Positions 21,401 through 57,328 of a stretch of 64,000 nt of DNA are shown here, in pieces. The DNA is from Terebella lapidaria (lineage: Eukaryota; Annelida; Polychaeta; Terebellida; Terebellidae). Positions within the stretch are counted from its first letter, which is position 1. Each line of letters opens with the position of its first letter. The stretch spans positions 1,116,001 to 1,180,000 of the forward strand of contig OX424564.1 of NCBI GenBank assembly GCA_949152475.1, read 5' to 3'. A program made the translations under genes and the position numbers. The notes under the pieces were generated by a model. The model had not been told where the DNA came from. It saw only the letters and a program-made list of their open reading frames with translations, and did not search any database.

Positions 21401-23472
21401 ATTGGTGCAATGTCGCTTGAAGAAGAGTTAAGAATGTATTGTAATTTCATCCCTGGAAATAGCGAGTGGCAATAAGATTGTAGCAGTCTGTCGTGGAATC
21501 CTTATAGACTCTGAGGGATGTAGCTTAAGACCACTCGAGATGAGTGGATCGTGTCATTCTCTATCCGTCTCTTTTTGATACCGAGACAACGACTGCGGTT
21601 TCTTTGTTGAGATATGGTGTGATGTCAAAGACGAATGTCGCGTTCGATTATCTGATTGAAGAACAGTTGTCCACAGTAAGGTTTGAGGCAAACGACACAT
21701 CAAACACATGTCAGCAAGAGACTTGTGTTTGATAATTTACTTGAATTAAAATTGGAACAAGAATTGGTATTTATCGCATTGAAAGCAACCTTCTGAATCT
21801 GGTGTTGATTGATATGAGCCGTAAGCCCGAATTAGTTAGATTGAAATCCAATTAATTCTGGTCTGTGAGGAACATTGTGTCTTATCGGGCTACACTGTAT
21901 TTCATTGTCTGAGGAATGACATCACACAGATACACAATATACACTACATAATTGAACAAATGAACACGCAAATGTGTTGTTACTTGCTACAAGATTCAAG
22001 GGGAAAACTCATTATAGTCTGCCTAATTGAGTGGAATTTTTTCTGTCATTCACAATGACTGATAACTGTGGCTGGTATATATATGTCAAAGTAAATATTT
22101 AGAAAATATGGAATGGCGCCCAGAAATTACATTATGAACTGGCATGCATTTTATTTCGATGAAATTATGAATGTATATTGACATGCAGATAAATACATAT
22201 TCGAAAGCGGAATTCGATTTGATTACATGTGCAATACTCCAGAATAATGAGCTTTTTCTGCTTTGCAGGCGACCCCTGCATCGCTGCCCATTGCTGCGGA
22301 CACAATGTGTTAGGTCATTTGTCTCTTAGTGGACGACGGGTAGTCTGGTGTCTGTGTGCACAGTCATCTAATAAGTCAGATTCTGCCAAATAGCAAATTA
22401 CAGCACATACAGTAGTAAATAGACTAGGAACAGAGCTTTACACTCATTATCGGCATTTACATTTTGTCAGGTGTACATTGGAATTGTCAAACTGACAAAA
22501 TGACAATTAGCTCAATAACATATGCACGTGGAAGAGTAGATGCCCTGACTACAAGGCAGCATCAAACCATCCATCTTCATCTGGTATGTGTCGGGTCTCA
22601 ACATTCTGAGGTGTCGTGTGTCATTCAGAGGAGATCAGGAGGTCTGTTATCCACCTCACCACATCCACAGAGTAAATGAGACATGTCATAATTCACTTTG
22701 GAACTAATGTTACATCCAGGCACATTTCCGGCATGACTTTCTGACAACCTAATTCGCAGTGATATCAATTATAGTGAATAATCACATATTGCTGTTATGT
22801 AAGGTGCTTTTCACCCGATATGTCGATGTTGATAAAACTTCGAGACTTAACATAAAACGCATGTGTCTCAGATGTTATTCAATTGATCATAACCTAACTA
22901 CTCCTTGAGGTGCAAAATCGAGGTGAAAGCATCAACTTCAGCATGGGCAATTGATAAGATATGACCCATTATGAAAAACTAAGTGATGGATTAACAATCA
23001 CGACCGCAATTATATAAGAAGGAAGTTTCTTGAATTTAAATTGACAGATAATATTTGACAGGTATAAAAGATTTCTCAGATACCCGTGAAGCATGCACTG
23101 ATGGTGGAAAGTGATTATCTATTTTCTATAGTTCCGTGTGACATCAGTAAGTATTAAGTCAGTGGACAACGTCCAGCCCGGATTCTAAGGACAAAACACA
23201 AGTATTACTCGTCATCTCGTGATTAATCCGTGCTCCAACTTCCACAGTCATTTAGAACACCCAGTTATATAAATATACTTAAGCAACAGAAATCTGATGT
23301 AGAGAACATGACAAGATTGTATCAAAATATAGCTACCACACAACCCCACATCTTCGACTATAGGCATCCGTCACCTCGTATGCCTATCCGTCACCCCAAA
23401 ATCCAACTCCAGTCTAAATTACTTTTGAATTATCATGCTTTGTGTGATGATAAACGCAAAATGTGCTGTCTT

Positions 23473-23859: not shown

Positions 23860-26270
23860 ACCACACGTGCGTCAGTCAGTGCGACAGCAACATTGCAGTG
23901 CATCTGCGGAATAGGTATTATCTGTCAGAATAAACCAGTGTGAATACACGAATACGATTTCATACCCGGTATATTTTACAAGCCGACCCCTTGATCACCC
24001 TAACTTTCTTCTTGACAGTTCAAGAAGGAAAACTGGTCAGGATTCTCGTCATTTCTATCAATTTATTGACCAGGAAATGACAAGTTGACAGCTTCAGGAC
24101 CACCGGGGCTATGGTGTCCGATGGCTCCTTTTTCAGTTCTCGCTACCTCGGGTTAAGGAATGCGATACACCGAAGGAACGATGTGATCAACAAAACTGCG
24201 ATGCAAAATATTTAGTGCCGTAAAAAACGTCAAGATTCTAAATCTATCTACAAAGCCATTGATCGATATCGTTGAGAGACTATTCGTATCATCATAATCT
24301 GTTATCTTTGGTATTTAAAGGAAATTGTCGACTTTTAAATGTCAAAAAATATACCAACAACTCGAGATGTGTTAATATTACTCCAGTACTTACTGGGTGC
24401 ATAGAGAGGTAGGCTACATATTGTGTATCAAATCACACTATTTTTCAAACATTTGACAATGGTGACAAGAAAAACTCCACACATCGATCAAATCCATGTT
24501 GGTGCTGAAGTTTATGACACCAACCTGGCAGTGCAACATCAACCTTTTATACTGGTGGATGCCTATGGCTCGCTATTCCTAGCAACAGTTGTATCGTCCA
24601 CAGTTTCTGGCTCCGTTTCTGTCTGAAAACAGCATTGGTGAGCCAAACGCCACATTTCTTTGCGAATTTTGCATAACAGAATCGAGTTCTGCAATTTAAA
24701 AAATTAAACGGTTGTACCTTACAAACTATTTTATTGCCAGAATTTTTTAACGATGGGTAAGGTCACACCAAACTGTAAATTTGGCCTATGGATTTTTGGT
24801 AAAAAATGGTTTATATGGAGATGTTTCAAAGAAATTTATATTTATGTTTTTTTTTATAATTTTATTGGTTTTTTTTTTAAATTTTACTTTTAAAACTACC
24901 GAACTCCATTCACCTTCCAATTGAAATCAGCTACACTATCACGCAAATAATACACATTATCATACATAATATAAATTGCAAAGCAGGAAACCATTCAATA
25001 TTCCAACTTATAATTATGTCAAGTATATCCAGTGTGTGTTGCTTATATCACCTGATGTACTGACCGTTTCTTCTTAATCTTATGTCTGCCTCAGGTTCAT
25101 TCCTCCTAGCACAATTTTGGACTGAAGACGCAAGACGATCATGGCATGACAATAGAAACACACATTTATAGTTTCTTGGCTCACAACCAGTCCAGTCCAG
25201 GTTATTCCAACACTGCACATGATCCATTGGTCAGATCAGCAGCCATCACATTCTCACGAAAGTTTAATGACATTTCACACCTGTGGATAATGCTTGAGAG
25301 GTGTAGAGCAATTTATTCCCACACACGAATTCGCGTAATATCCAAGCAAATACCCATAGAGCATCTGCTCTATGGAGTCTTGCATGACGAACGGCACATT
25401 GGGCAAATAAACATCTCCACACCATGGACTGTACTAAATTTTCCGATAACATTCAACACTTGCAAAATCTGACCTGATGCATTGTATTGATATAAACATC
25501 GTGGCAAATTGTATTGCGATCAATCGCTACGGCCCTGGAAATTGGTATGGACTAGAGCTCTGTGTGGACTTAACAAGGAGTCGACCCAGATAATCAAACA
25601 TACTTGAGGGAAATAAACGCAAGTTCATATCTGGAACAAATACATTGAATCGAAGCTAATCTATTATAGATCAACCTTTGACAGCGAAACAGTTGTGCAG
25701 AAGTATGCAGAAAATATGCCTACCAACCTGTGTGCTGCATGAAGGTTGCATCAGTTCCTTATCACCACTAGGTACCTGTTCATCTCACGAATTGTCTCCC
25801 CAGACGAGATCTTATGGGTATCTTGTCGTATTAGTGGTAATAACAAAGTCTTGTGGTATTAGTGGTAATAACTTAGAAAAATAGTCACTCAGGGTTTCAT
25901 TAAAATAATGCAAATGACGAAAAGGCTGATCTTGAACCGAATCAGTCTTTACATCATTTTACAGCAAATTGTTCCATCGTTAAAATGGCGACGGGCCGGA
26001 AAAGGGATTGAACTATGCCGGTATATGTTGTTACCATTGCTCTGCAGAAGTACGAAGCCGCAACGTTTACGGAAAAGGACAAAGAATGCCCACCGTCTCT
26101 GAATATCATGGAACTGAAAATGAAGAAGTGGTGTGTAGCGCTAATTCATGCCCAGATATTTAGGTTATATACACGTAAATGACAATAGAAGGTTCTGATC
26201 AATCGTTGCACGACCGAGGTATTGTTTTCACAATAGTTGTGCATCTTTCTACGGAAGACCGCTGGTGCCA

Positions 26271-31640: not shown

Positions 31641-33342
31641 TACGGTGGCTTATTTCTGCCAAAATTAGATTAATTTTGTTTTAAAAAAAATCAGATATAA
31701 ATATTTTAATTAAACACGGAGCAAATGTTTCCTTCGCGAAGCAAACATTTTCTTCACGAAGCAAATAGTTTCCTTCGCAAAGCAAACGTTTCCTACACAA
31801 AGTAAATAGTTTCCTACGCGGAGTAAATGTTTCCTTCATGAAGCAAGCGTTTTCTTCACGAAGTAAATAGTTTGCTTTGCAAAACAAGTGATTCCTTCGC
31901 GAAGCAAACGTTTTCTTCACGAAGCAAATAGTTTGCTTTGCAAAGCAAATGTTTCCTTCGAAGGCCAAACGTTTCCTTCACGAAGCAAATAGTTTGCTTT
32001 GCATAGCGAATGTTTCCTTTGCGAAGCAAACGTTTTCTTCACGAAGCAAATAGTTTGTTTTGCATACCAAATGTTTCCTTCACGAAGCAAACATTTCCTG
32101 CACGTAGGAAATAGTTTCCTACGAGGAGCAAATGTTTCCTTCACGAAGCAAACATTCCTACACGAAGTAAATAGTTTCCTATGAGGAGCAAATGTTTCCT
32201 ACGCGAAGCAAACATTTCCTACACGAAGTAATTAGTTTCCTACGAGGAGCAAATGTTTCCTTCACGGAGCAAACGTTTTCTTCATGAAGAAAACGTTTGC
32301 TTCGCAAAGTAAACATTTGCTTTGTAAAGCAAACTATTTACTTCGTGAAGAAAGCCTTTGCTTTGTGAAGGAAACATTTGCTCCACGTAGGAAACTATTT
32401 ACTTCGTGTAGGAAATGTTTGCTTCGCGAAGCAAACGTTTTCTTCACGACGCAAATAGTTCGCTTTGCATAGCAAATGTTTCTTTTGCGAAGCAAACGTT
32501 TGCTTCACGAAGCAAATAGTTTGCTTTGCGTAGCAAATGTTTGCTACACGAAGCAAACTTTTCCTACACGAAGTAAATAGTTTCTTGTGCGGAGCAAATG
32601 TTTCCTTCACAAGCAAACGTTTCCTACGCGAAGCAAATAGTTTCCTACATGGAGCAAATGTTTCCTTCCTGAAGCAGACGTTTTCTTCACGAAGCAAATA
32701 GTTTGCTTTGCGTAGCAATTGTTTCCTTCGAGAAGGAAACGTTTCCTACACGAAGTAAATAGGCCCTACTTTGCTTTGCGTAGCAAATGTTTCTTCCATG
32801 AAGCAAACGTTTTCTACACAAAGCAAATAGTATACTACGTGGAGCAAATGTTTCCTTCGCGTAGCGAACGTTTTCTACATGAAGCAAATGGTTTTCTCCA
32901 CGAAGGAAATGTTTCCTTCGCGAAGCAAACGTTTCCTACACAAAGCAAATAGTTTACCATGTGGAGCAAAGGTTTCCTTCACTAGCAAACATTTTCTACA
33001 CGAAGCAAATGGTTTGCTCCACGAAGGAAATGTTTCCTTTGCGAAGCAAATGTTTTCCTCACGAAGCAAATGATTTGTTTCGTGTAGAAACGTTTGCTTC
33101 GCGTAGGAAACATTTGCTATGCAAAGCAAACTATTTGCTTCATGGAGAAAACGTTTGCTTCGCGAAGGAAACATTTGCTTTGCAAAGCAAACTATTTAGT
33201 TTGTGAAGAAAACGTTTGCTTCGTGAAGGAAACATTTGCTCCGCGTAGGAAATTATTTACTTCGTGTGTAATTAAAATATTTATATCTGAAATTTTTTTT
33301 CACAGAAATTTATCTAATTGTGGCAGAAAATAAGCCACCGTA
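31641..33342. mobile_element. 1.7 kb foldback transposon filled with palindromic satellite
   Basis: Inverted ends of ~75 bp begin TACGGTGGCTTATTT at the left and end AAATAAGCCACCGTA-like at the right (about 88% alike, extending to CAGATATAAATATTTTAATTA). They are flanked by identical 6 bp repeats GTAATC at 31635-31640 and 33343-33348. The interior (~31715-33270) is entirely a degenerate array of ~75 units of 20-21 bp, each itself an inverted repeat of the type GAAGCAAA-YR-TTTKCTTC. Long frames on both strands (repeating motifs such as KETFAPRRKLF) are artefacts of the unit. No transposase. A superfamily cannot be assigned; a 6 bp duplication fits few plain DNA transposons (Dada-type uses 6-7 bp). 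Confidence 0.85.
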
Positions 33343-45790: not shown

Positions 45791-45999
45791 ATACTTGTTA
45801 ATCGGTAATGATTTGGCGAAAGACAAAGTTATCCCTGCTCCTGAGTTAGTGAGCAGTCCAGTCGAGTCACCTGAAACAGAAAAACTTGCAGAAGAATATC
45901 CTGATGTGAGCTCTTTCTGTAAGTCATGCCATAGCTGTTAGGTTGTAGGCAAACCGAATGACAAGATCCCTAAAGCGCCTCTTATACCGATACCTGCAT

Positions 46000-47866
46000 T
46001 CGAAGAACCATTTTCGCGTGTTATTGTAGACTGCGTGGGTCCACTCCCTGAAGCGTATTCAGGTAATCAGTACATACTGACTGTAATGTGCGCTTGTAGT
46101 CGTTTCCCTGAAGCTATTCCCTTGCGTAAGATCACAGCACCGACTGTTTCAAAAGCTCTTGTGAAGTTTTTCACATCGTACGGTTTGCCAAAGATGGTTC
46201 AGACGGACCAGGGTAGCAATTTTATGTCAAAGTTGTTCAAACAGGTTTTGAGGGAACTCAATATTGAGCACTGCACTTTTTCAGCATATCATCCCCAATC
46301 ACAGGGAGCACTAGAGTGTTTTCATCAAACTTTGAAAACGATGATCAATGAGGTGGTGCAGGAATCACTTGGTTTCTCCCCATTTGAGCTTGTATTTGGG
46401 CATACGGTTCGAGGTCCCTTGAAGGTCTGTAAAGATAAGCTTCTGGATGAAGTTTCTGAAACAAATCTGCTAGATTATGTTTCGTCGTTTAGTGACAGGT
46501 TGCACTCAGCTAGAGAGTTAGCCAGACAGAACCTGGTAGCCACACAGGAGAAAATGAAATCGTGGTATGACCGCAAGACAGTTGTCAGGGTGTTTGAACC
46601 AGGAGATGAGGTACTAGTTCTGTTTCCACACCAGGGTAATGTGATTCAAGCCAGTTATCAGGGTCCGTTTAAAGTAGAACGGAAAGTTGGTGATGTGGAT
46701 TACATTATCAAGACACCAGATCGTCGAAAGTCTCGACAGTGGTGCCTCATCAACATGCTTTTTCATCAAACTTTGAAAACGATGATCAATGAGGTGGTGC
46801 AGATAAGGATATGCCTTATCACAAGCGTGTTTCTCCTGTCGCATCTGTTTCCAGTTGCCCTGATAAGTGTCCTGTAGAATCAGAAGAAATTCTTGAGCAG
46901 GAAAGTGATTCCCTCGGTGCTCCACTAGTTGCTCAATCAGTTAACTGTGGTGTGAGGTTGTCGACCTTTGAGATTTTGCACAAGTTTTTGTAGAACCTTG
47001 ACATGAAACAACAGAATGATCTCCTTACACTGGTGAACAAGTATCATTCCATATTTCCTGATGTTCCCAGTAGAACCAGTGCTATTTTTCATGATATAGA
47101 TGTGAGCGGCGCCTCGCCAATCAAGCAGCATGCCTACAGAGGTAATCCAGAAAAAGCAGGATACATGCATGATGAGATAGTAGAGTACATGGTGAAGAAT
47201 GGCATCGTAGAGAGTAGCTTCAGTTCGTGGAGTTCGCCATGTATACTTGTGCCAAAAGCTGATGGCTCTTTAAGGTTTTGTACTGATTTTCGGAAGGTGA
47301 ATTCTGTTACCAAAACAGATTCATATCCTATCCCAAGGATCGATGACTGCATCGACCGTGTTGGATATGCCAAGTATGTCACAAAATTTGACTTGCCCAA
47401 GGGGTATTGGCAAGTCCCTCTGACCGAGAGAGCTAAAGAAGTCTCAGCTTTTGTGACTCCATTTGGTCTTTTTCAATACACGGTAATGCCATTCGGTATG
47501 AAGTATTATCAACCTATTACCGCTGATAACCAAATTTTGATGATGCCAATGAAAAAAACCTAATATCAGAAACTTTCAGAATAGAAACAAAGCCCGACCA
47601 AACATTCATATCTGAAGGCAAACAGTGTGTAATTATAGTTGTTTCTACTGTACACCAGATGGAATTAGTGTACAACTGCCCAACAACTTATCAAAACAAT
47701 TTAGAAATCCGAAAACAAACCCCATGAAATAGGTGTATGACAAGTACATAAGTACCCAATCACAAGCCAAAAGTGATTCAACTGCCACCTTCCAAAGACT
47801 CATGAAAGGTGTGATTTCGGGGTTTATGGGCGTCTCTGCATACATCGACGATATTATAATAATGTA
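46000..47866 (+). pseudogene. Integrase then reverse-transcriptase region of the LTR fossil
   Basis: Integrase core (46035-46760) with DCVGPLPE, MVQTDQGSNFMSKLFKQ and YHPQSQGALE, then a GPY/F-like stretch (YQGPFKVERKVGDVDYIIKT). After a linker comes reverse transcriptase (47003 on) with SSWSSPCILVPKADGSLRF, KFDLPKGYWQVPLT and PFGLFQYTVMPFGMK; a later YIDD-containing part is separated by the nested Rep360. A ~43 bp piece of the integrase region is repeated near 46760. Broken and incomplete. Confidence 0.8.
47531..47772 (-). repeat. Rep360 copy (minus orientation) nested in the LTR fossil
   Basis: Reads as the reverse complement of the consensus (AGAAACAAAGCCCGACCAAA to CCAATCACAAGCCAAAAG) and splits the reverse-transcriptase region. 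It is truncated compared with the full unit. Confidence 0.8.
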
Positions 47867-48029: not shown

Positions 48030-48298
48030 CGCACATTATCACTGCGAAGGAGCTGGATGTTTCAGATACACATGATACTGAGCCAGGTTATTTGCCCATG
48101 TTATTTTTGTCTGTGTTAAATAAAGTGTTTTTTTCTGTAATTCATCGGTTTTCATCTGGATCAATGGACATTGGACCTCTTATGTTCATTTTGTATTAAA
48201 TCTAGCCGATGCAGAATCTCCACAACTCAAAGCTGTCTGTGGCCCTTCCAGGATCCTTGTGCTCACTGAAGCTGCAAATAGTCAGTCATATCTAACAT

Positions 48299-48547
48299 GT
48301 GATCATGATTAGCAGTAAAGGTCGAGGCAAAGGTCAAGGCAAGGGTCACAGCAAGCAACGAGCTACTACTGGTTCACAAAACCCCCAGCAGCAACTCCCG
48401 CAACAGTCTACTGCTGAGCCTGATACCACATCTCACGATCAGGTAGAGGTCTGTGCAGTCTGCATGACCGATGTGCCTGGTAAGTTGTATGGATGTGATC
48501 GCTATCCGACCTGGGACCCAGTTTTGCCCACTTTTGTCTGCCTATAA
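48299..48547 (+). CDS. Fragment of a PHD/RING-like zinc-binding frame
   Basis: About 80 codons: a Gly/Lys/Gln-rich N-terminus (KGRGKGQGKGHSKQR), then VCAVCMTDVPGKLYGCDRY and a stop at the edge of the GGCAGCC repeat. C-x2-C, then YGCD, is the opening half of a PHD- or RING-type finger; the remaining zinc ligands are absent, and the expected next Cys is Tyr. It may be the truncated end of a host or transposon gene cut by the neighbouring element. 48030-48298 holds nothing recognised. Confidence 0.35.
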   Translation: MIMISSKGRGKGQGKGHSKQRATTGSQNPQQQLPQQSTAEPDTTSHDQVEVCAVCMTDVPGKLYGCDRYPTWDPVLPTFVCL

Positions 48548-48675
48548 GCTTATAGGCAGCCATTTGCACGCGCAGGGCTGCCTATATGCGCAAATGCTGC
48601 CTATAGTGCGCAAATGAATGCCTATAAGAAAATGGTTACGTGGTACCATTTTTGCACAAGATGGCTGCCTATTGA
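48539..48675. repeat. Left GGCAGCC motif cluster
   Basis: Five inverted and direct copies of TATAGGCAGCCATTTGCGCA-type sequence in 135 bp, including a TATAAGCTTATA palindrome. The same motif fills 54575-56590 on the far side of the recombinase region, so the two clusters bracket it. Confidence 0.75.
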
Positions 48676-48719
48676 AAATTTCTGAGAATTATTTTTTCAT
48701 TATTTTTTAGGATTGATCA

Positions 48720-49110
48720 CTAAAGTGAAGAAAAATAAAATAAGGCATCTTCATGGACCAAAAAAGAGTTCCATCCCTCGATGCAAATAATAAAGTCATG
48801 AGGTATATCAAACCAAACATAATGAAAATGAAAATACAAAAAAGTTCCGTCCCTCAGGGCAAGTTAAAAGAATCAAAGTAATGTACAATAAAACATATAT
48901 CAAGATTAAAATCAAATAATAGGGCATCTTCATGGAACACAAAAACGTTCCATCCCTCGATGCAAATAATAAAGTCATAAGGTATATCAAACCAAACATA
49001 ATGGAAATGGAAAAAACAGCCGTTTCACCGAATACAAAAAAGTTCCGTCCCTCAGGGCAAATTAAAATAAAAGCATATACAAAACAAAAAAAGTCCTAGT
49101 CGGGGGGATT
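48720..49110. repeat. Two-copy ~180 bp tandem repeat
   Basis: GGTATATCAAACCAAACATAATG, AAAAAGTTCCGTCCCTCAGGG and CATCCCTCGATGCAAATAATAAAG each occur twice, ~180 bp apart. It lies just downstream of the minus-strand recombinase frame and may be its 3' untranslated region. Confidence 0.7.
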
Positions 49111-49182
49111 AGGTTGCTGTTTTTTTCCCGTCGAGACCGGAAACTATTGTACAGCTGGTCGATCGTGTAGGACTGTATCAAG

Positions 49183-50420
49183 TCATCGAAGTTTGAACCG
49201 GCAGCCTTCAGGGTTCTCAAGATTTCGAACCGGTACCTCGAAGCTGGCAGTACAGAGGTTCTGAGCCTGTCTTGAGGCGTCTTCCACACCAATCACACGC
49301 TCCCTCCCGAAGACAAGATCTCTGGAAGAGGTGGAGGTGGATGTAGATGGTCCAGCATCGTTCGGTTGAGCAACGTCGTTTGTTTCACTTGCCGGGTCCT
49401 CCGCTTCTGCTGCGGGCTTCACAGCTTCGCCGTCGCTGTCTTCACTCTCGCTGTTGACATCAGTAACTGAACGATACATGGACGTGATTAGGCTCGCTGT
49501 CCTCACAGACACCTGCAGTCCCTCGCCGACATTGTAGTGCTTGTCCGCTGTCGCCAAAGAATGGTCCATCAACCTCGCCAGTTTCTGTTGCTGATCCCTG
49601 GCGAAGACTGGTCCTGCCTTGATAGCGACACCAAGGACTTCCTCACCAGGGTACAAGAGATTGGGCGGTCCGAGAACTCTCTCCTGGATGGCCTTGTTGA
49701 TGGCCGACGGGTCCATATCCGTGCCACGAGTGTTGTAAAACACGTAGTCGTGATCTTTCAGGGAGTTGTAAGATCGGCGCACGCGAGTGACATAGGGCAT
49801 TAGTACCGAGTGGGTTTCCTTTGTCATGGTAACTCTCGCGGGTCAGTAGTACTTCGCAGTCTTCGAATTGGTGATGTGAAGGATGAACATGCCTTCTGTC
49901 TCTGCAGCCAGGATGTCGGGAACTCGCATTTTGGCCAGGACTCCTCTCTTGCTGTTCGTCAGCTCAATGACAAGGAGTAGATGGTCCCGGTGTTTGACGT
50001 ATGCCGAGTCCGTGATCATCATGGTCTCCCTGAAGTTGCAAAACCACTTGATGGTGTCCGTGATCTCGGGGCTCTCCAGAGCGCTGGCAATGTCCCGGAC
50101 TGAAAGTTTGCTGCCAACCTGACTGACTTAACGGGTGGACTTTTCGCGCGAGTACTCAGCAGTCTCAGCACTAACGCACATTGACTGCACGAGGTGAAGC
50201 TGTTGGCTGCGCTGTGCATCTATCCATTCTCCCTTCCATCGCTCGCTGACCTCCAGAAATTCGATAAAGTGCTTGATGCTCACGATGTGGTTCTTCAGGG
50301 AGCCCCACTTCAGCCTGAACTGCTGCTTCAGAAGAAGAAACACATTCCCCTGACCACCAGTTTCTTCTCTGCCGATGTACAGAAGCAGCTGGAGACTCAG
50401 TGTTCCCACTCCGGCCCCTC
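49183..50420 (-). pseudogene. Tyrosine recombinase (YR) domain
   Basis: The N-terminal helical part (LKNHIVSIKHFIEFLEVSER, then WKGEWIDAQRSQQLHLVQSM) precedes a catalytic domain with RDHLLLVIELTNSKRGVLAK, FILHITNSKTAKYY, VFYNTRGTDMDPSAINKAI, and the C-terminal LARLMDHSLATADKHYNVGE. The last carries the final His and the candidate nucleophile Tyr in the usual H-S-x-x-T-A-x-x-Y setting. The expected catalytic Arg of the HxxR box is not obvious upstream of LARLMDH. An acidic, Ser-rich tail follows (SESEDSDGEAVKPAAEAED). One in-frame stop lies just before MTKETHSVLMPY (49827), and a frame change lies near 50125. Confidence 0.65.
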
Positions 50421-50479
50421 TCGTTGATGGGCCTCGCCAACTTTGCCAACCTCTACCTCTGTTCTGCCTCCAGGTGGTG

Positions 50480-50760
50480 GAACTTGGGCAGGTGGTAGGA
50501 GGCGATCCTCGGGCCACTCCATCGGCACTGGAAGACGGGGCAACGGACCACTGGGTAAGTCCGTGCGGCTGGTCAATCAGGCTTCTCTTTGAGGGTGTCG
50601 TAGTTAAACTTCGGAATCTATTTGTGGCACTGCCGGAAGTGTTTGTTGAGGTTCTGGACCTCCTTTCCACAGACTCTCCTGTTCTCTTTGACTCTTGGCC
50701 AGTCCGGAAATCGGGTGGTTCTTCGTGTGAGTACGCCGACCCTCAGCAACTTGCGACATT
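50480..50760 (-). pseudogene. C2H2-like zinc-finger segment between repeats and recombinase
   Basis: Frames here read CGKEVQNLNKHFRQCHK (near 50625-50680) and CPVFQCRWSGPRIASYHLPK with a following FHH (near 50490-50555), both of the C-x2-5-C to H-x3-4-H type. NLNKHF also appears in the plus-strand frame at 54.3 kb, suggesting related proteins. Stops and frame changes occur between the two fingers. Confidence 0.5.
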
Positions 50761-50764
50761 CCAG

Positions 50765-52900
50765 CTCGGACCTTGGTGGGCCTAACTCTTCTTCTCAGCC
50801 TTGGCCTATGCCTTGGCAACCAGGCGGGCTTCTCGCTCCCCGTCCAGAGCCTTGAGTGCAGTATTGGCCGCCTTACTCTTCTCTGCCTTGGCCTGTGCCT
50901 TGGCCTATGCCTTGGCCTCCAGGCGGGCTTCTCGCTCCCCTACCCAGAGCCTTGAGTGTAGCCTTGGCCGCCTTACTCTTCTTCTCCGCCTTGGCCTATG
51001 CCTTGGCCTCCAGGCGGGCTTCTCACTCCCCCACCCAGAGCCTTGAGTGTAGCCTTGGCCGCCTTGGCCTATGCCTTGGACTCCAAGAGGGCTTCTCACT
51101 TTCGTCCAGAGCCTTGAGTGTAGCCTTGGCTGCCTTACTCTTCTTCTCAGCCTTGGCCTATGCCTTGGTCTCCAGGCGGGTTTTTCGCTTTTCGTCCAGA
51201 GCATTGAGTGCAGCCTTGGCCGCCTTAGTCTCCTTCTCAGCCTTGGCCTCCAGGCGGGCTTTTCGCTCCCCGTCTAGAGCCTTTAGTGCCACCTTGGCCG
51301 CCCTACTCTTCTTCTCAGCTTTGGCCTGCGACTTGGCCTCCAGGCGGGCTTCTCGCTCCCCGTCCAGAGCCTTGAGTGCAGCCTTGGCCACCTTACTCTT
51401 CTTCTCAGCCTTGGCCTGTGCCTTGGCCTCCAGGCGGGCTTCTAGCTCCCCATCCAGAGCCTTGAGTGCAGCCTTGGCCACCTTACTCTTCTCCGCCTTG
51501 GCCTGTGCCTTGGGCTATGCCTTGGCCTCCAGGCAGGCTTCTCGCTCCCCGTCCAGAGCCTTGAGTGCAGCCTTGGCCGCCTTACTCTTCTTCTCCGCCT
51601 TGGCCTATGCCTTGGCCTCCAATCGGGCTTCTCGCTCCCCGTCCAGAGACTTGAGTGTAGCCTTGGCCGCCTTACTCTTTTTCTCAGCCTTGGCCTGCGT
51701 CTTGGCCTATGCCTTGGCCTCCAGGCGGGCTTCTCGCTCCCTGTCTAGTGCCTTGAGTGCAGCCTTGGTCGCCTTACTCTTCTCCGCCTTGGCCTGTGCC
51801 TTGGCCTCCAGGCGGGCTTCTCACTCCCCGTCTAGTGCCTTGAGTGCAGCCTTGGCTGCCTTACTCTCCTTTTCCGCCTTGGCTTCCAGGTGGGCTTCTC
51901 GCTCCCCATCTAGTGCCTTGAGTGCAACCTTGGCCGCCTTACTCTTCTCAGCCTTGGCCTCCAGGTGGGCCCATTCGCTCCTCGTCCAGAGCCTTGAGTG
52001 CAGCCTTGGCTGCCTTACTCTTCTCCGCCTTGGCCTGTGCCTTGGCCTATGCCTTGGCTTCCAGGAGGGCTTCTTGCTCCCTGTCCAGAGCCTTGAGTTT
52101 AGCCTTGGCCGCCTTATTCTTCTCCGCCTTGGCCTGTGGCTTGGCCTATGCCTTGGCCTCGAGGCGGGCTTCTCGCTCCCTGTCAATAGCCTTGAGTGCA
52201 GCCTTGGCCGCTTTACTCTTCTCGGCCTTGGCCTGTGCCTTGGCCTATGCCTTGGCCTCCGGGCGGGCTTCTCGCTCCCCGTCCAGAGCCTTGAGTGCAG
52301 CCTTGGCCGCCTTACTCTTCTTCTCCGCCTTGGCCTGTGCCTTGACCGCCTTGGCCTCCAGGCTGGCTTCTCGCTCCTCGTCCAGAGCCTTGAGTGCAGC
52401 CTTGGCCGCCTTACTCTTTTTCTCCGCCTTGGCCTGCGCCTTTGCCTCCAGGCGGGCTTCTCGCTCCCCGTCCAGAGCCTTGAGTGTAGCCTTGGCCACC
52501 TTAGTCTTCTTCTCACTGGCCTGCGCCTTGGCCTCCAGGCGGGCTTCTCGCTCCCCGTCCAGAGCCTTGAGTGCAGCCTTGGCCGCCTTACTCTTCTTCT
52601 CAGCCTTGGCCTGTGACTTGGCCTCCAGACGGGCTTCTCGCTCGCCGTCCAGAGCCTTGAGTGTAGCCTTGGCCGCCTTACTCTTCTCTGCCTTGGCCTG
52701 CACCTTGGCCTATGCCTTGGCCTCCAGACGGGCTTCTCGCTCCCCGTCCAGAGCCTTGAGTGCAGCCTTGGCCGCCTTACTCTTCTCAGCCTTGGCCTAT
52801 GCCTTGGCTTCCAGGCGGGTTTTTCACTTTTCGTCCAGAGCCTTGAGTGTAGCCTTGGCAGTCTTACTCTTCTTCTCCGTCTTGGCCTGTGCCCGCTGCT
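50765..52900 (-). repeat. About 23 tandem coiled-coil-coding repeats of 70-105 bp
   Basis: The core unit on the minus strand reads ALDGEREARLEAKAQAKAEK then KSKAAKAALK, ~28-30 residues, strongly charged and helical. Unit length varies by whole short sub-blocks such as AKAQ. Several units have TAG where others have CAG (AKA-stop-AKA), so the change has spread with the repeat. The plus strand is open for 586 codons (50856-52616), a by-product of the unit lacking stops in that frame. Confidence 0.9.
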
Positions 52901-53338
52901 TCTTTTCCACCTTCCGCTGCTTCTGGCCGCCGCCCGACTTCACCGGTGCCCGAGAGGGTGTGGGATTGGCCTCGTGATTGCTCACGGGCCTCCCTCAGGC
53001 ACCCTCCGGGAAAGAAAGACCAAGATAGTAATTGAGCACTTTAATGCTTTCATATGGCTTTGGCTCGCCAAACTTCACACTCTTGTCCACCAGACGGAGC
53101 ACGACACGCTGGGTCACGTTCTTGTCCTCGGTTGGGACCCTGAGGATACCAATCCGTCGATGGACCTCGTCCACAAACTCAGCCACGTCCTCCTCTGACA
53201 GTTGGACCTTGTTTCTATCCAGGTGCCGCAGCAGAGGAGCCTGGTCCTCCAGCAACTGAACTTTCCGCAAACCTTCAGAACGATATTGGCCTTGCTGGCC
53301 AGCTTGAGAGTTTCAACCACAATAGCCGACATGGTCAC

Positions 53339-54262
53339 ATATAATATTTACTAAGAATAAGGTATCAAGTATTATCAAAATTAATATCAATTTAAGTATG
53401 CAATGAGAACGCTAGGAACACCAATCTGAACGATGCAACCTGGTAGAAGGCTATCTGAGAGCAATAAAGACTGATGGCAGCGCCCGAACCCTTATAACCT
53501 AGCACCTATCATAAAAGTGGTGTCAATTTGTTTCTGGCGATGTAGTTTGCACACGCTTATAAATAATTATTACACAATGAAATATTGATATAGGACTATA
53601 ATTTCTACATCAAAATGTGAAGATTATTATTATCTTTGTCCAAACATTATATGCAATTAGTAGATTAACAGATGAAAGTAGATTTTCGCTCATAGAACAG
53701 TTATGTCATTATGGAACAATTATGTCCCTGTTTCAACTCTATGCTTGCTCTTCAAAGATAATTGGTACTAGTAACGCTACCGCCATCGAGTGAATTACGT
53801 AAAACTAAAAAAGAAGACGTTATGACGTTTTTATGCAGTATTTGGAAGGTTTGTCCAAATATAGCGTAAAACTAAAAAATGAGACGTTATGACGTTTTTA
53901 TGCAGTATTTTTCAATCAGAGGACATTATGACAAATTAAATGCTGATGCATGGGCCACGTGCTTATATTATCAGCATTGCCTTGCAGATGCATTATCTGC
54001 ATTATTACCTTGTACACAATAAGCACATACTCTTTTTTGCAATATAAATATGGAATCTACCAACTATTATTGCAGATTTGCCGTGCATGCTTTTATTTGT
54101 GTTGTGTCGCCTATGTATTACTCCACGTGTTCAGTTTTTAAATGAATCCTTCTTCAGTGAAACAATTTGATAAAATATGATTATGTTGCTTGAATTATTG
54201 ATTTATAATGTTATTAGGACACAACGGTACATCTATCATGAACCCCTACGTCATCGATGTAG
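53339..54262. other. AT-rich spacer between the two opposing frames
   Basis: Contains a two-copy block (GTAAAACTAAAAAA.GA then GACGTTATGACGTTTTTATG, at ~53798 and ~53868). No gene is seen. The promoter of the minus-strand frame should lie here. Confidence 0.45.
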
Positions 54263-54574
54263 TTGACCTCTACAACCTCTTCGTGTTTGTATTCCACTGG
54301 TCGAGAAATCAACCTGAACAAACACTTCAAAACTGTGCACCGGGGAGAGAGGGCACCAGGCAGCCGTCAGGGCCAGGGCCCAAGAGTTCGCGCCGCAGGA
54401 AAAGTAGAGGGGAAGCTCTGCCCTGAATGCGGGGCGAGGACCCAGAAGCTGGAGAGGCACCTAAGGATACATCAAAAATATTGTAGAATAAATAATAAAA
54501 ATGTCATTTGGAAGTATATATCTGTGTATTTCTTGTTATGTGGTAATAGATTCCACCAAGTACCTTCCTCATAG
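54263..54574 (+). CDS. Zinc-finger frame, opposite orientation to the recombinase
   Basis: Plus-strand frame with INLNKHFKTVHRGERAPG, a basic Gly/Arg linker and LCPECGARTQKLERHLRIH, a good C2H2 finger. The first finger has lost one Cys (SCLYST where C-x2-C is expected). TTATTAG at ~54215 could be an acceptor for an upstream exon, and a stop lies right before the frame. AATAAATAATAAA at 54488 overlaps its end. It shares NLNKHF with the minus-strand fingers, so it probably belongs to the same element. Confidence 0.5.
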   Translation: MTSTTSSCLYSTGREINLNKHFKTVHRGERAPGSRQGQGPRVRAAGKVEGKLCPECGARTQKLERHLRIHQKYCRINNKNVIWKYISVYFLLCGNRFHQVPSS

Positions 54575-56590
54575 GCAGCCATCTCCACAAGTAACCTTGC
54601 TTATAGGCAGCCATCTCCACAAGTAACCTTGCTTATAGGCAGCCATCTCCACAAGTTACCTTGCTTATAGGCAGCCTTTAGTGCAAGTAACCTTCCTTAT
54701 AGGCAACCATCTGCGCAAGTAACCTTGCTTATAAGCTTATAAGCAGCCCTGTGCATAACCATGGATGCGCAGATGGCTGCCTACAAGCATATAAGCTGCC
54801 CTAACGAAATAGGCAGCCCTGTGCATAACCATGGATGCGCAGATGGCTGCCTATAAGCATTAATTATCTATAACTTTGATTATTTATATAATAGAAAAAA
54901 AGTAATTACACTATTGGAAAGCTAGAACAAAACTGCACAAAATATACAGAATTTGTTGTGCTAGATTGAAAGTTAGGAACTTGGTTCGATATTTTTCTAT
55001 GGTGTTCTCAATTTTCACGCTTCTCAGCTCATTCTTAATTATTTTTTGTATAAAACGTTATTGTTTATGCTGTATGAAGGATTTCAAATATTCTTATTTA
55101 ATAGAGATATATTACACATTTGAACATATGCAAAAGTTGACATCCTTATAGGCAGCCATCTGTGCTAGTACATTGCTTATAGGCAGCCATCCGCGCAAGT
55201 AACCTTGCTTATAGGCAGCCATCTGTGCAAGTAACCATGCTTATAGGCAACCATCTGCTCAAGTAACCTTTTTATAGGCAGCCATTTGCACAAGAACCGA
55301 GCTTATAGGCAGCCCTGCGCATAACCATGGTTGCGCAAATGGCTGCCTATAAGCATAATTTAATGACAACTCTAAATATTTTTAGAGTAAGGAAATAGTA
55401 ATTACACTGTTGGAAAGCTATAAAAAAAATACACAGAATATATGGAATTTATTGTGCTAGATTGAAATGTAGGAAGACGATTAATTTTTTCTCTCTGTTC
55501 TTCTCATTTTTCATGCTGCATAGCTCATTCCTAACTATGTTTAGCCCTGCAGATGGCTGCCTATAACAGTTAATTAACAATAACTCTAATTATTTTTAGA
55601 ATAGAAACTTTTGTATTTGCCTTGCTGGAAAGCCAGAATAAACCTGAACAAAATATATGGAATTTACTGTGCTAGATTAAAAAGTAGAAATATGATTCTT
55701 TTTTTTTTCTCTGGTCTTCTCATTTTTCATGCTGCATAGCCAATTCCCAATTATGTTTTGTATAACACGGTAATGTTCATGCTCTATGAAGGATTTTAAA
55801 TAATTTTAATAATAACGATATGCCACACATTTGAATATATTGCCAAAGTTGACATCCTTATAGGCAGACATTTGCGCAACCGCGGTAACGATCTGCGCAC
55901 ATTTGGCTGCCTGTAACCTATACCTTTCTTCAGATTTGGCTGCCTATAACTAGTTTTTTAACGAAAGTTTTTTGAACGAAAATCAAATGTTATTTTCGTC
56001 ATAGAAAAAATTTGAAAACACCATCGGTGTTCTTTTTGGCAAAAAAACCCACCATGGTTTCAATCAACTTTCGAGCTACAAGCGATCAAATATTTTCAAA
56101 GCCATGGTCTCTTGAGTCTCACTTGTAAAACGCTGATAACTTTTTTTCTGCTTAAGATAATTCTTAGCTTTTCGGTAGTTTTCCTACGCTAACAAAGTAC
56201 TACTTGTTTACAAGAACTCCCGTCTCTATATCTAACAGAAACATTTTAGTGTAACTATGGTTCTTCGTTAATATAGGGTTCTGATGTCATATGATCCCAA
56301 CCTGCTTTTTTTTTGGACAAGTCACAGATGAATGGTTATGAGGTGAAATAACGGGTTTACAGCTTAGATCTTTTGAAATTAGATTTAAAACCATTACCAA
56401 GTGGGGTAAACGAAGATCCATGTGTCTCTGAGACGTTTTAACTCTGAGATATCCTTATGGGCAGCCATTTTCGCAGACTGTTCAGGTGGCAAGAATTTTG
56501 GTAAAAACATGGTAAAAACGACATCACGATAAAATTTAGCGATCGTTTTACCCCTACAATTCAAAGTTATAAGCAGCCACGGTTTGCAGA
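54575..56590. repeat. Right GGCAGCC motif clusters with a triplicated ~300 bp module
   Basis: The motif TTATAGGCAGCCATCTGCGCA with an AAGTAACCTTGC spacer recurs ~15 times in both orientations at 54575-54860, 55148-55350, 55550-55565, 55858-55945 and 56455-56580. Between clusters, a module with GGAAAGCT, TGTGCTAGATT, TTCTCATTTTTCATGCTGCA and TATGAAGGATTT occurs three times (54862-55147, 55355-55549, 55566-55857). No coding frame. A short more GC-rich patch follows at 56590-56760, open in one frame but unrecognised. Confidence 0.8.
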
Positions 56591-56760
56591 ACCGGGTGAC
56601 GGGGTACCACGCATACTGCCTCCCAACAAGAGATCAGCAGCAGCATCTGGCACACGCAGCGATTTGCAGTGGCCCTTCAACGGGTGCTTGCATGAGGGAA
56701 TAGAACTGTTTTGTTCTGATTTTCAACCTCCTAATGTAGGTGATGTTCTGATCTCAATCT

Positions 56761-57328
56761 TTGTCACTGTTTTTGCAAACAATGTTTTTGGTACTTTGAA
56801 ATGTTGTGTGATTATTATATTGTATTGTACTGTTGTAAGCAGTGACAAACGATTTGTTACAAGATAATGATATACTGATTATTTCAAAATGCAATTTAAT
56901 TAGTATTAGCATGAGAATATATTTGGTGTAAACATATTTTATTAACATTGAGCATTGACCAGCAGGGCAAGCCCTATGTGAAGGTCTCTGCAAGTGCGAC
57001 TATTTACAACGTGAATAAACAAAACTGGCAACACAATATTATACAACGTATAAGACACAACAATATTCACAATATGTACATGGCAATAATGATGAAAGTA
57101 TGATAGTATGACAATCAATATGTATTTTTATGATGGCATGATGAAACTATAGAACTTTCAGATTGACCATGAAATAACTCGATATCAGAAACACAACGTT
57201 AACAATTTATCAATTCATATCATGAAAATCATTCAACTTGTTATGAGTGTGGACAATTATTAATTGTATAACATGATTATCTAACGGACAACGTAATAAA
57301 TGTGTTATGATACTAGTATTACATGTAG
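56761..57328. other. Gene-free AT-rich stretch
   Basis: Nothing recognised. Confidence 0.45.

Follow-up and report, generated by a model that had tools for sequence, protein, structure and literature searches.

The window analysed here is a 64-kb stretch of the Terebella lapidaria genome (contig C11:1116001-1180000; genome of 761.6 Mb in 438 contigs, referred to below by C numbers), and it contains an insertion that carries the remains of a gene for a protein resembling tyrosine recombinases (YR). On the minus strand, from 53332 to about 49125, an N-terminal piece (52995-53312) is followed in order by the repeats, by pieces with a C2H2-like pattern and by a C-terminus that resembles a YR and contains MDHSLATADKHYN. 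The initial annotation of this DNA had described this order of parts together with a zinc-finger-like frame on the plus strand, and both are present as it claimed. The minus-strand parts do not make up a single open reading frame in this copy: the YR stretch and the array units are broken by stops, the main YR stretch containing one TGA and one TAA, and the region that matches the HxxR motif of the relatives reads differently, as expected of a frameshift pair. The remnants are listed below.

52790..53332, minus strand: exon 1 remnant with the N-terminal domain, from sequence comparison with relatives
50770..52893, minus strand: array of 23 units of 71-102 bp (units counted from 52853 down to about 50770), not an open frame, from a repeat search
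49125..50781 (low end approximate), minus strand: exon 2 remnant with C2H2-like motifs and YR, containing stops and frameshifts
49534..49536, minus strand: presumed nucleophile Tyr codon (MDHSLATADKHY); the H841 and Y850 columns of an alignment of relatives (A1) are invariant in 8/8
54263..54574, plus strand: divergent zinc-finger-like frame with a C2H2 pattern and weak Pfam matches
48739..49079, no strand: tandem repeats downstream of the YR gene (unit of about 196 bp in the relative on C292)

Relative to the C292 copy (up to 25206 there), about 1.1 kb of the start of exon 2 is absent from the window. The C2H2 Pfam matches are weak and all lie under the curated cut-offs, so that it is chiefly the arrangement of Cys and His residues that justifies the label 'zinc finger'. 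A fold prediction for the N-terminal domain from the window sequence alone reached a predicted local distance difference test score (pLDDT) of 43 and was not taken into a fold search.

Used as queries against the genome, the left and the right flank of this region each led to C5:35031211-35032080, where C5:35031657-35031211 constitutes a paralogous empty site in which window positions 48303-48518 and 56603-56834 are contiguous, with a 6-bp overlap, GGTACC, that is present once in the target. The span of 48539-56590 proposed initially lies close to the ends found in this way, 48513-56608, which are made up of the following features.

48513..48518, plus strand: left 6-bp core GGGACC, element version, from the overlap of an element-to-element alignment (start 48513) with the empty-site alignment (end 48518)
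48519..56602, no strand: body of the mobile element, about 8.08 kb, from the empty site on C5
56603..56608, plus strand: right 6-bp core GGTACC, target version, from the empty-site alignment

The two cores form 6-bp terminal direct repeats with one mismatch. The left-junction core GGGACC was also found on C6, C292, C311, C338 and C341, and the left end itself (GGGACCCAGTTTTGCCCACTTTTG) occurs exactly at six places with flanks of three kinds (C11; C6; and a group within 18S ribosomal RNA genes), against two for the control, and at one more place with three mismatches; a more diverged left end, GGGACCCGTTTCGCCC, was located at C6:22752764. Right ends elsewhere carry the cores GGAACC (C6) and GGGACC (C9), the latter adjoining exon-1-like sequence of the element's own family, in which C292 has AGGACC at that point. 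Since the left core is the element's version and the right core that of the target, the arrangement fits a crossover inside the core, whereas a copied target duplication predicts the target version on both sides. No terminal inverted repeat was detected in the outer 60 bases of both ends; the best inverted match there is the subterminal half-site TGCCTATAA, with a score of 17 that was reached by 16 of 500 shuffles. We read the window sequence as the dead, decayed remains of a DNA transposon that encoded a YR.

The flank of the C292 copy was identified as the 18S rRNA gene, for which the Rfam model RF01960 scored 199 bits on C311, C338 and C341. In three of four hits the RF01960 match ends at model position 388, where the element starts, and the flank of the C292 copy recurs, 100% identical as printed, at 18 more places on 16 contigs including C338. 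On C328 the 18S site is empty and reads GTAACGGGTAACGG[GGGATC]AGGGTTCG. A pattern of 18S sequence followed by GCTGCCTATAAGC within 6-36 bases was found at seven places (control, 0), and the left ends in 18S were of two kinds, GACCCAGTTTTGCCC on C292, C311, C338 and C341 (four) and CATCCCTTTAT on C176, C317 and C373 (three); within each kind these may be fewer insertions than contigs, as ribosomal DNA (rDNA) units are copied among themselves. Both kinds join identical 18S bases, and the junctions show GACC or CATC in place of GATC. On C176, a YR with 36% identity lies 3.5 kb inside the left end, oriented as its counterpart in the window's family, and the two probably belong to one element; on C317 and C373 the second kind of left end was seen alone. 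Within C176:9001-16000, which holds this left end in 18S and the 687-codon YR frame, the interval between the two contains low-complexity minisatellite and open frames rich in His, Ser and Ile. Copies of the family are also found outside rDNA.

Further copies with the same order of parts, which the initial annotation had proposed to look for in related genomes, are present in the genome of the window itself. Searched at the protein level, the C292 exon had 78 genomic matches (E<=0.001). The C292 relative combines an open N-terminal exon, a GGCAGCC-rich intron and a 1007-codon frame that holds both C2H2-like motifs and a YR domain (R-K-TxxR-H-Y); one array-type unit is followed by a candidate donor site AAG/GTGAGA near 22920 and an intron of about 1.2 kb, mostly 31-bp GGCAGCC minisatellite, with exon 2 starting after TTTTTTTTCCAG at 24115, so that copies of the C292 type would be spliced as two-exon genes. 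The 1007-codon frame is open in C292, C311 and C341 (99.9-100% alike), and C338 retains its last 330 codons up to the contig end. Further copies, many of them broken, lie on C6, C4 and C3, and paralogues at about 35-37% identity keep long open frames on C10 (748 codons), C334 and C385 (702), C176 (687) and C9 (636, shortened in alignment A1). The N-terminal exon has 24 homologous matches, 12 of them on C11 within the window copy, and the C292 version of the zinc-finger-like frame has 11 matches in the genome including the query locus, four of these at 36-38% identity. The ratio of nonsynonymous to synonymous substitution rates (dN/dS) between C292 and the C6 and C4 copies was 0.13-0.30 (four comparisons, 233-647 codons), and three window pieces gave 0.07-0.27 over 41-94 codons; of the 11 pairs computed, a wrong-register C6 exon 1, two distant pairs with saturated dS and the pair C292-C10 (dS 2.5) stand outside these ranges. 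The values for the C6 and C4 copies are as expected if the source copies kept a working protein. In a separate cluster, C1:95186408-95199213, four YR paralogues at 33-36% identity stand in a row on one strand, with stops inside each.

The identity of the recombinase was assessed from the relatives, as a Pfam scan of nine window pieces gave no YR family match up to E 1; the profile check suggested for the window was negative on its own sequence and gave PF00589 matches below the curated cut-off on the relatives. Against a curated cut-off of 27.1 bits, PF00589 reached 23.9 bits (E 3.9e-5) on the C292 exon and 25.9 bits (E 9.6e-6) when the YR part was taken alone, the best E value within alignment A1 being 1.6e-5. 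Profile alignment with hhalign against a set of E. coli XerD/XerC, P1 Cre and lambda Int gave E 7.3e-6 with a probability of 84%, and a nine-paralogue profile against the same set gave E 3.4e-5 with 72%; NGKRxGVL falls opposite TGLRVSEL, and the LxRKS stretch is at the HxLRHS region. A search of the PDB with a profile of six rows returned two matches, both recombinases (3nkh, Integrase, E 0.011; 5hxy, XerA, 0.025), and the catalytic residues R234, K264, R340, H367 and Y376 are invariant in 6/6 rows. No DUF3504 match was among those reported for C292 (filters drop most matches above about 0.1), and 9/9 family members lacked a PHROGs match at E<=0.01. The assignment of the protein as a tyrosine recombinase is well supported by these sequence comparisons, with no curated threshold passed.

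The array had been viewed in the initial annotation as a long coiled-coil domain between the N-terminal domain and the recombinase. When the frame is reset at each unit, 14 of the 23 contain a stop, and the length of four is not divisible by 3; the same unit is single in 4/4 relatives checked (C292, C4 and two C6 copies; C292 version, KAALKDLDGEREARLEAKAQAKAQAKAEKK). The idea of a working coiled coil was rejected on the stops and on the single unit of the relatives. The array occupies the place of the intron and of the missing start of exon 2, and the arrangement that had been noticed is a stop-filled expansion of a single unit in a dead copy.

The element also contains the following sequences.

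48537..48560, plus strand: left subterminal near-palindrome TCTGCCTATAAGCTTATAGGCAGC, 24 bp, read from the sequence
54552..55351, no strand: two clusters of a 32-bp GGCAGCC minisatellite

The near-palindrome is also found at the left ends on C6, C176 and C292 and just past the C6 right end, and it may be a binding site for the recombinase or an accessory protein. The GGCAGCC clusters were borne out as a property of the element: TATAGGCAGCC, with up to one mismatch, occurs 29 times in the window, of which 27 lie within 48536-56578; the expected number is 0.56 in the window as a whole. Genome-wide, CTTATAGGCAGCCATNTGCGCA (one mismatch) occurs at 184 places (control, 0), and all of the 100 places listed are on C3, C4, C6, C11, C292, C311, C338 and C341, contigs with family copies. 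Phage att sites have arm-type sites, and by analogy the GGCAGCC repeats could be binding sites for the element's proteins.

The right end resembles the 18S gene upstream of the insertion site.

56593..56602, plus strand: right-end arm CGGGTGACGG, with 9/10 bases as in 18S beside the insertion site

Compared with the 18S sequence CGGGTAACGG, the ten bases before the right core match at 9/10 in the window and on C9 (CGGGTGACGG in each) and at 8/10 on C6 (TGGGTGACGG), and the shuffled window arm reached nine matches at that register in 77 of 100000 trials. Given this resemblance, an insertion into 18S would leave a near-copy of the site at the right end. In one case, at C6:22885584, a right end runs directly into CATTTTGACTGTAAATTGGTTACCTATAAGCTTATAGGTAGCC, a left-end-like sequence with the palindrome, as stacking would give. 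The surrounding interval, C6:22752764-22894394, holds several family copies or pieces, with zinc-finger-like paralogues at 22889013, 22890739 and 22894203, and its elements are possibly nested or in tandem.

Taken together, we consider it likely that the window holds a decayed copy of an rDNA-homing, integrase-driven DNA transposon that would be Crypton-like in its working; the activity of the element we infer from sequence. The direct support consists of the insertion boundaries, the core overlap, the conserved left ends, the common 18S site, the conserved YR residues and the low dN/dS. In this model, the better preserved copies would express, from a two-exon gene, a protein of about 1.2 thousand residues in which the N-terminal domain is followed by a short charged helix, then by C2H2-like motifs and, at the C-terminus, by the tyrosine recombinase. 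This enzyme would excise the element, presumably as a circle, via recombination between its two ends, and the circle would reinsert by strand exchange in the 6-bp core, GGGACC in the element and GGTACC, GGGATC or AGGACC in the targets. The home site would be the 18S rRNA gene at GTAACGGGTAACGG[GGGATC], and the GGCAGCC/TATAAGC repeats, which lie in the intron and close to either end, may act as arm-type sites for the element's zinc-finger-like proteins or the N-terminal domain. As the right end imitates one side of the 18S site, insertion would re-create the target, which would explain back-to-back elements. A broader proposal, which we hold to be evenly balanced, is that these are a lineage of eukaryotic integrative elements that work as temperate phage integrases do: a zinc-finger YR would home to 18S by core match, the right end would restore a docking site at each insertion and so allow tandem stacking, and copies outside rDNA would decay.

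Several observations weigh against this account. The rDNA insertions are known from left junctions alone (the right side at C292 being N), and the long shared DNA blocks of C292, C311, C338 and C341 are 97.5-99.9% identical, so that these contigs are not independent evidence and the four rDNA contigs of the first kind may represent one insertion copied with the array. On C6, the left and right flanks are not those of one simple insertion, the left target TTGGGTATT, examined by eye, fits at only 3/6 core bases and is unclear as a second empty site, and the right arm has the lower 18S match given above; 10-mers with at least nine matches to the 18S arm number three in the window on both strands, the arm itself included. 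As to the protein, the PF00589 scores of C292 remain below the curated cut-off, PF00589 at E<=0.1 was found in only 3/8 and 2/9 paralogues in two scans, and the Pfam and hhalign alignments end ahead of the final H..Y stretch. The PDB search with C292 alone returned eight weak matches of which one is a recombinase (3nkh, E 2.6), and the nine-row profile returned XerA (0.036) together with pyruvate kinase (0.46). The His of HxxR is His in 4/8 rows of A1, Thr in 3/8 (C292, C6 and C4, the subfamily of the window) and Asn in 1/8.

Other origins were weighed on the same evidence. An ordinary DNA transposon that duplicates 6 bp of its target, is mobilised in trans by an unrelated transposase of the DDE type and carries the YR gene as cargo would account for the 6 bp common to both flanks, but at the left of the window copy, as at other exact left ends, the core is the element's GGGACC where the target has GGTACC, and at the left junctions in 18S the target's GATC is replaced by GACC or CATC; the ends also lack a terminal inverted repeat, and no transposase domain was found in the element open reading frames (ORFs) scanned, which were a subset consisting of nine window pieces, then two, and seven of C292. 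We regard such an origin as unlikely. A YR retrotransposon of the DIRS, Ngaro or PAT type that lost its reverse transcriptase (RT) would bring together a YR with zinc-finger-like motifs, and an RT stretch does lie nearby (46994-47563); this RT and the integrase core domain rve (45942-46877) are, however, beyond the empty-site boundary, and neither RT nor RNase H nor methyltransferase came up in the ORFs scanned (a search for split direct repeats was not part of this), which makes this origin very unlikely. The exact left end and the right end on C6, 108.6 kb apart (22776998 to 22885584), could suggest a decayed element, virus-like or of a giant integrative kind, whose YR end is the sole part in view. 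The C6 flanks appear nested or tandem, the window copy measures 8.08 kb between its boundaries, and viral contigs gave 39 pattern matches of which 0 were confirmed as relatives, so this explanation too has a very small probability; a single 108.6-kb element at C6 was itself set aside because the sequences on its two sides do not agree and a dispersed repeat stands at the end of the left one. Least probable of all is a domesticated host gene family with a YR domain that spread by segmental duplication. The low dN/dS and the several divergent paralogues with long open frames speak in its favour, but the precise empty site, left ends that stay the same beside flanks of three kinds, and the two kinds of left end in 18S oppose it. 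Domestication had been offered at the outset for the window gene itself; it is not supported for this copy, which is damaged and lies between the ends of a mobile element. The divergent paralogues on the large contigs C10 and C9 may be domesticated. The alternative offered beside it, a YR element, is upheld by the empty site, the other copies with a like order of parts and the ends borne by the element.

The neighbourhood holds further features. The interrupted ORF (window 48296-48518 and 56603-56834) has its paralogue at C5:35031211-35032080 and contains a Cys-rich motif, CAVCMTDVPG..YGCDR.PTW, which looks PHD-like by eye, without a supporting Pfam match. Pieces of a long terminal repeat (LTR) retrotransposon lie outside the YR element, with rve (PF00665, 45942-46877) followed by RVT_1 (PF00078, 46994-47563), both on the plus strand. 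At 31715-33266 a long tandem array has about 74 copies of a 20-bp unit (periods of 41 and 61 also occur), the repeats being partly palindromic and of the GAAGCAAACGTTT type.

We then compared the rDNA-homing YR transposon with known systems. It shares with lambda Int, Cre and XerC/D an R-K-HxxR-H-Y recombinase and a short core, but it is eukaryotic, has a split gene and zinc-finger-like motifs, and the similarity is remote. Further traits in common with phage integrative elements would be arm-type sites, ends that reproduce some of the target sequence, and tandem accretion. From DIRS and Ngaro it differs in that neither RT nor RNase H is present in the ORFs scanned. Cryptons are YR DNA transposons (PMC3212892) for which 4-6 bp terminal direct repeats in the fungal and stramenopile groups were proposed as recombination substrate, with movement as a circle; the likeness to CryptonF/S/A/I lies in a DNA transposon with a YR, short terminal direct repeats and low copy number, and the window element has a YR without RT, a DNA insertion, 6-bp terminal repeats and no terminal inverted repeats. 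For animal Cryptons (groups A and I), the same paper (PMC3212892) reports that terminal repeats were not found and that there is no C-terminal domain, perhaps short of a strict definition, whereas the window family combines 6-bp cores and the 18S target with a gene that has an N-terminal exon, an intron and C2H2-like motifs, and with a divergent zinc-finger-like frame. We describe the element as Crypton-like in its working and leave its membership open, the likeness being judged from description and not from protein comparison. CryptonV of cnidarians, as described in PMC8869645, is likewise a target-specific YR DNA transposon of animals, but its target is microsatellite and not rRNA genes, a comparison made by description only. 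Pokey (piggyBac type) and R2 (non-LTR) share a fixed rRNA-gene site, and Pokey occurs elsewhere in the genome too, but these use a DDD/E transposase or a reverse transcriptase and the 28S gene, not 18S (PMC8869645). The suggestion of a new type of YR element is supported in part, by the 18S target, the C2H2-like motifs, the additional zinc-finger-like frame and the 6-bp terminal repeats.

According to PMC8869645, target-specific DNA transposons are few, and the rDNA-specific elements we found named there use a DDD/E transposase or a reverse transcriptase. Among the titles and abstract openings listed in the literature search, which did not extend to Repbase, none dealt with a YR element in the 18S gene. 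The circle model for Cryptons was proposed by analogy with prokaryotic YR elements (PMC3212892). If the present reading is correct, that model could be put directly to the test on a YR element whose core is defined, whose empty site is known and whose home is 18S, and the family would be a possible source of a site-specific integrase for rDNA.

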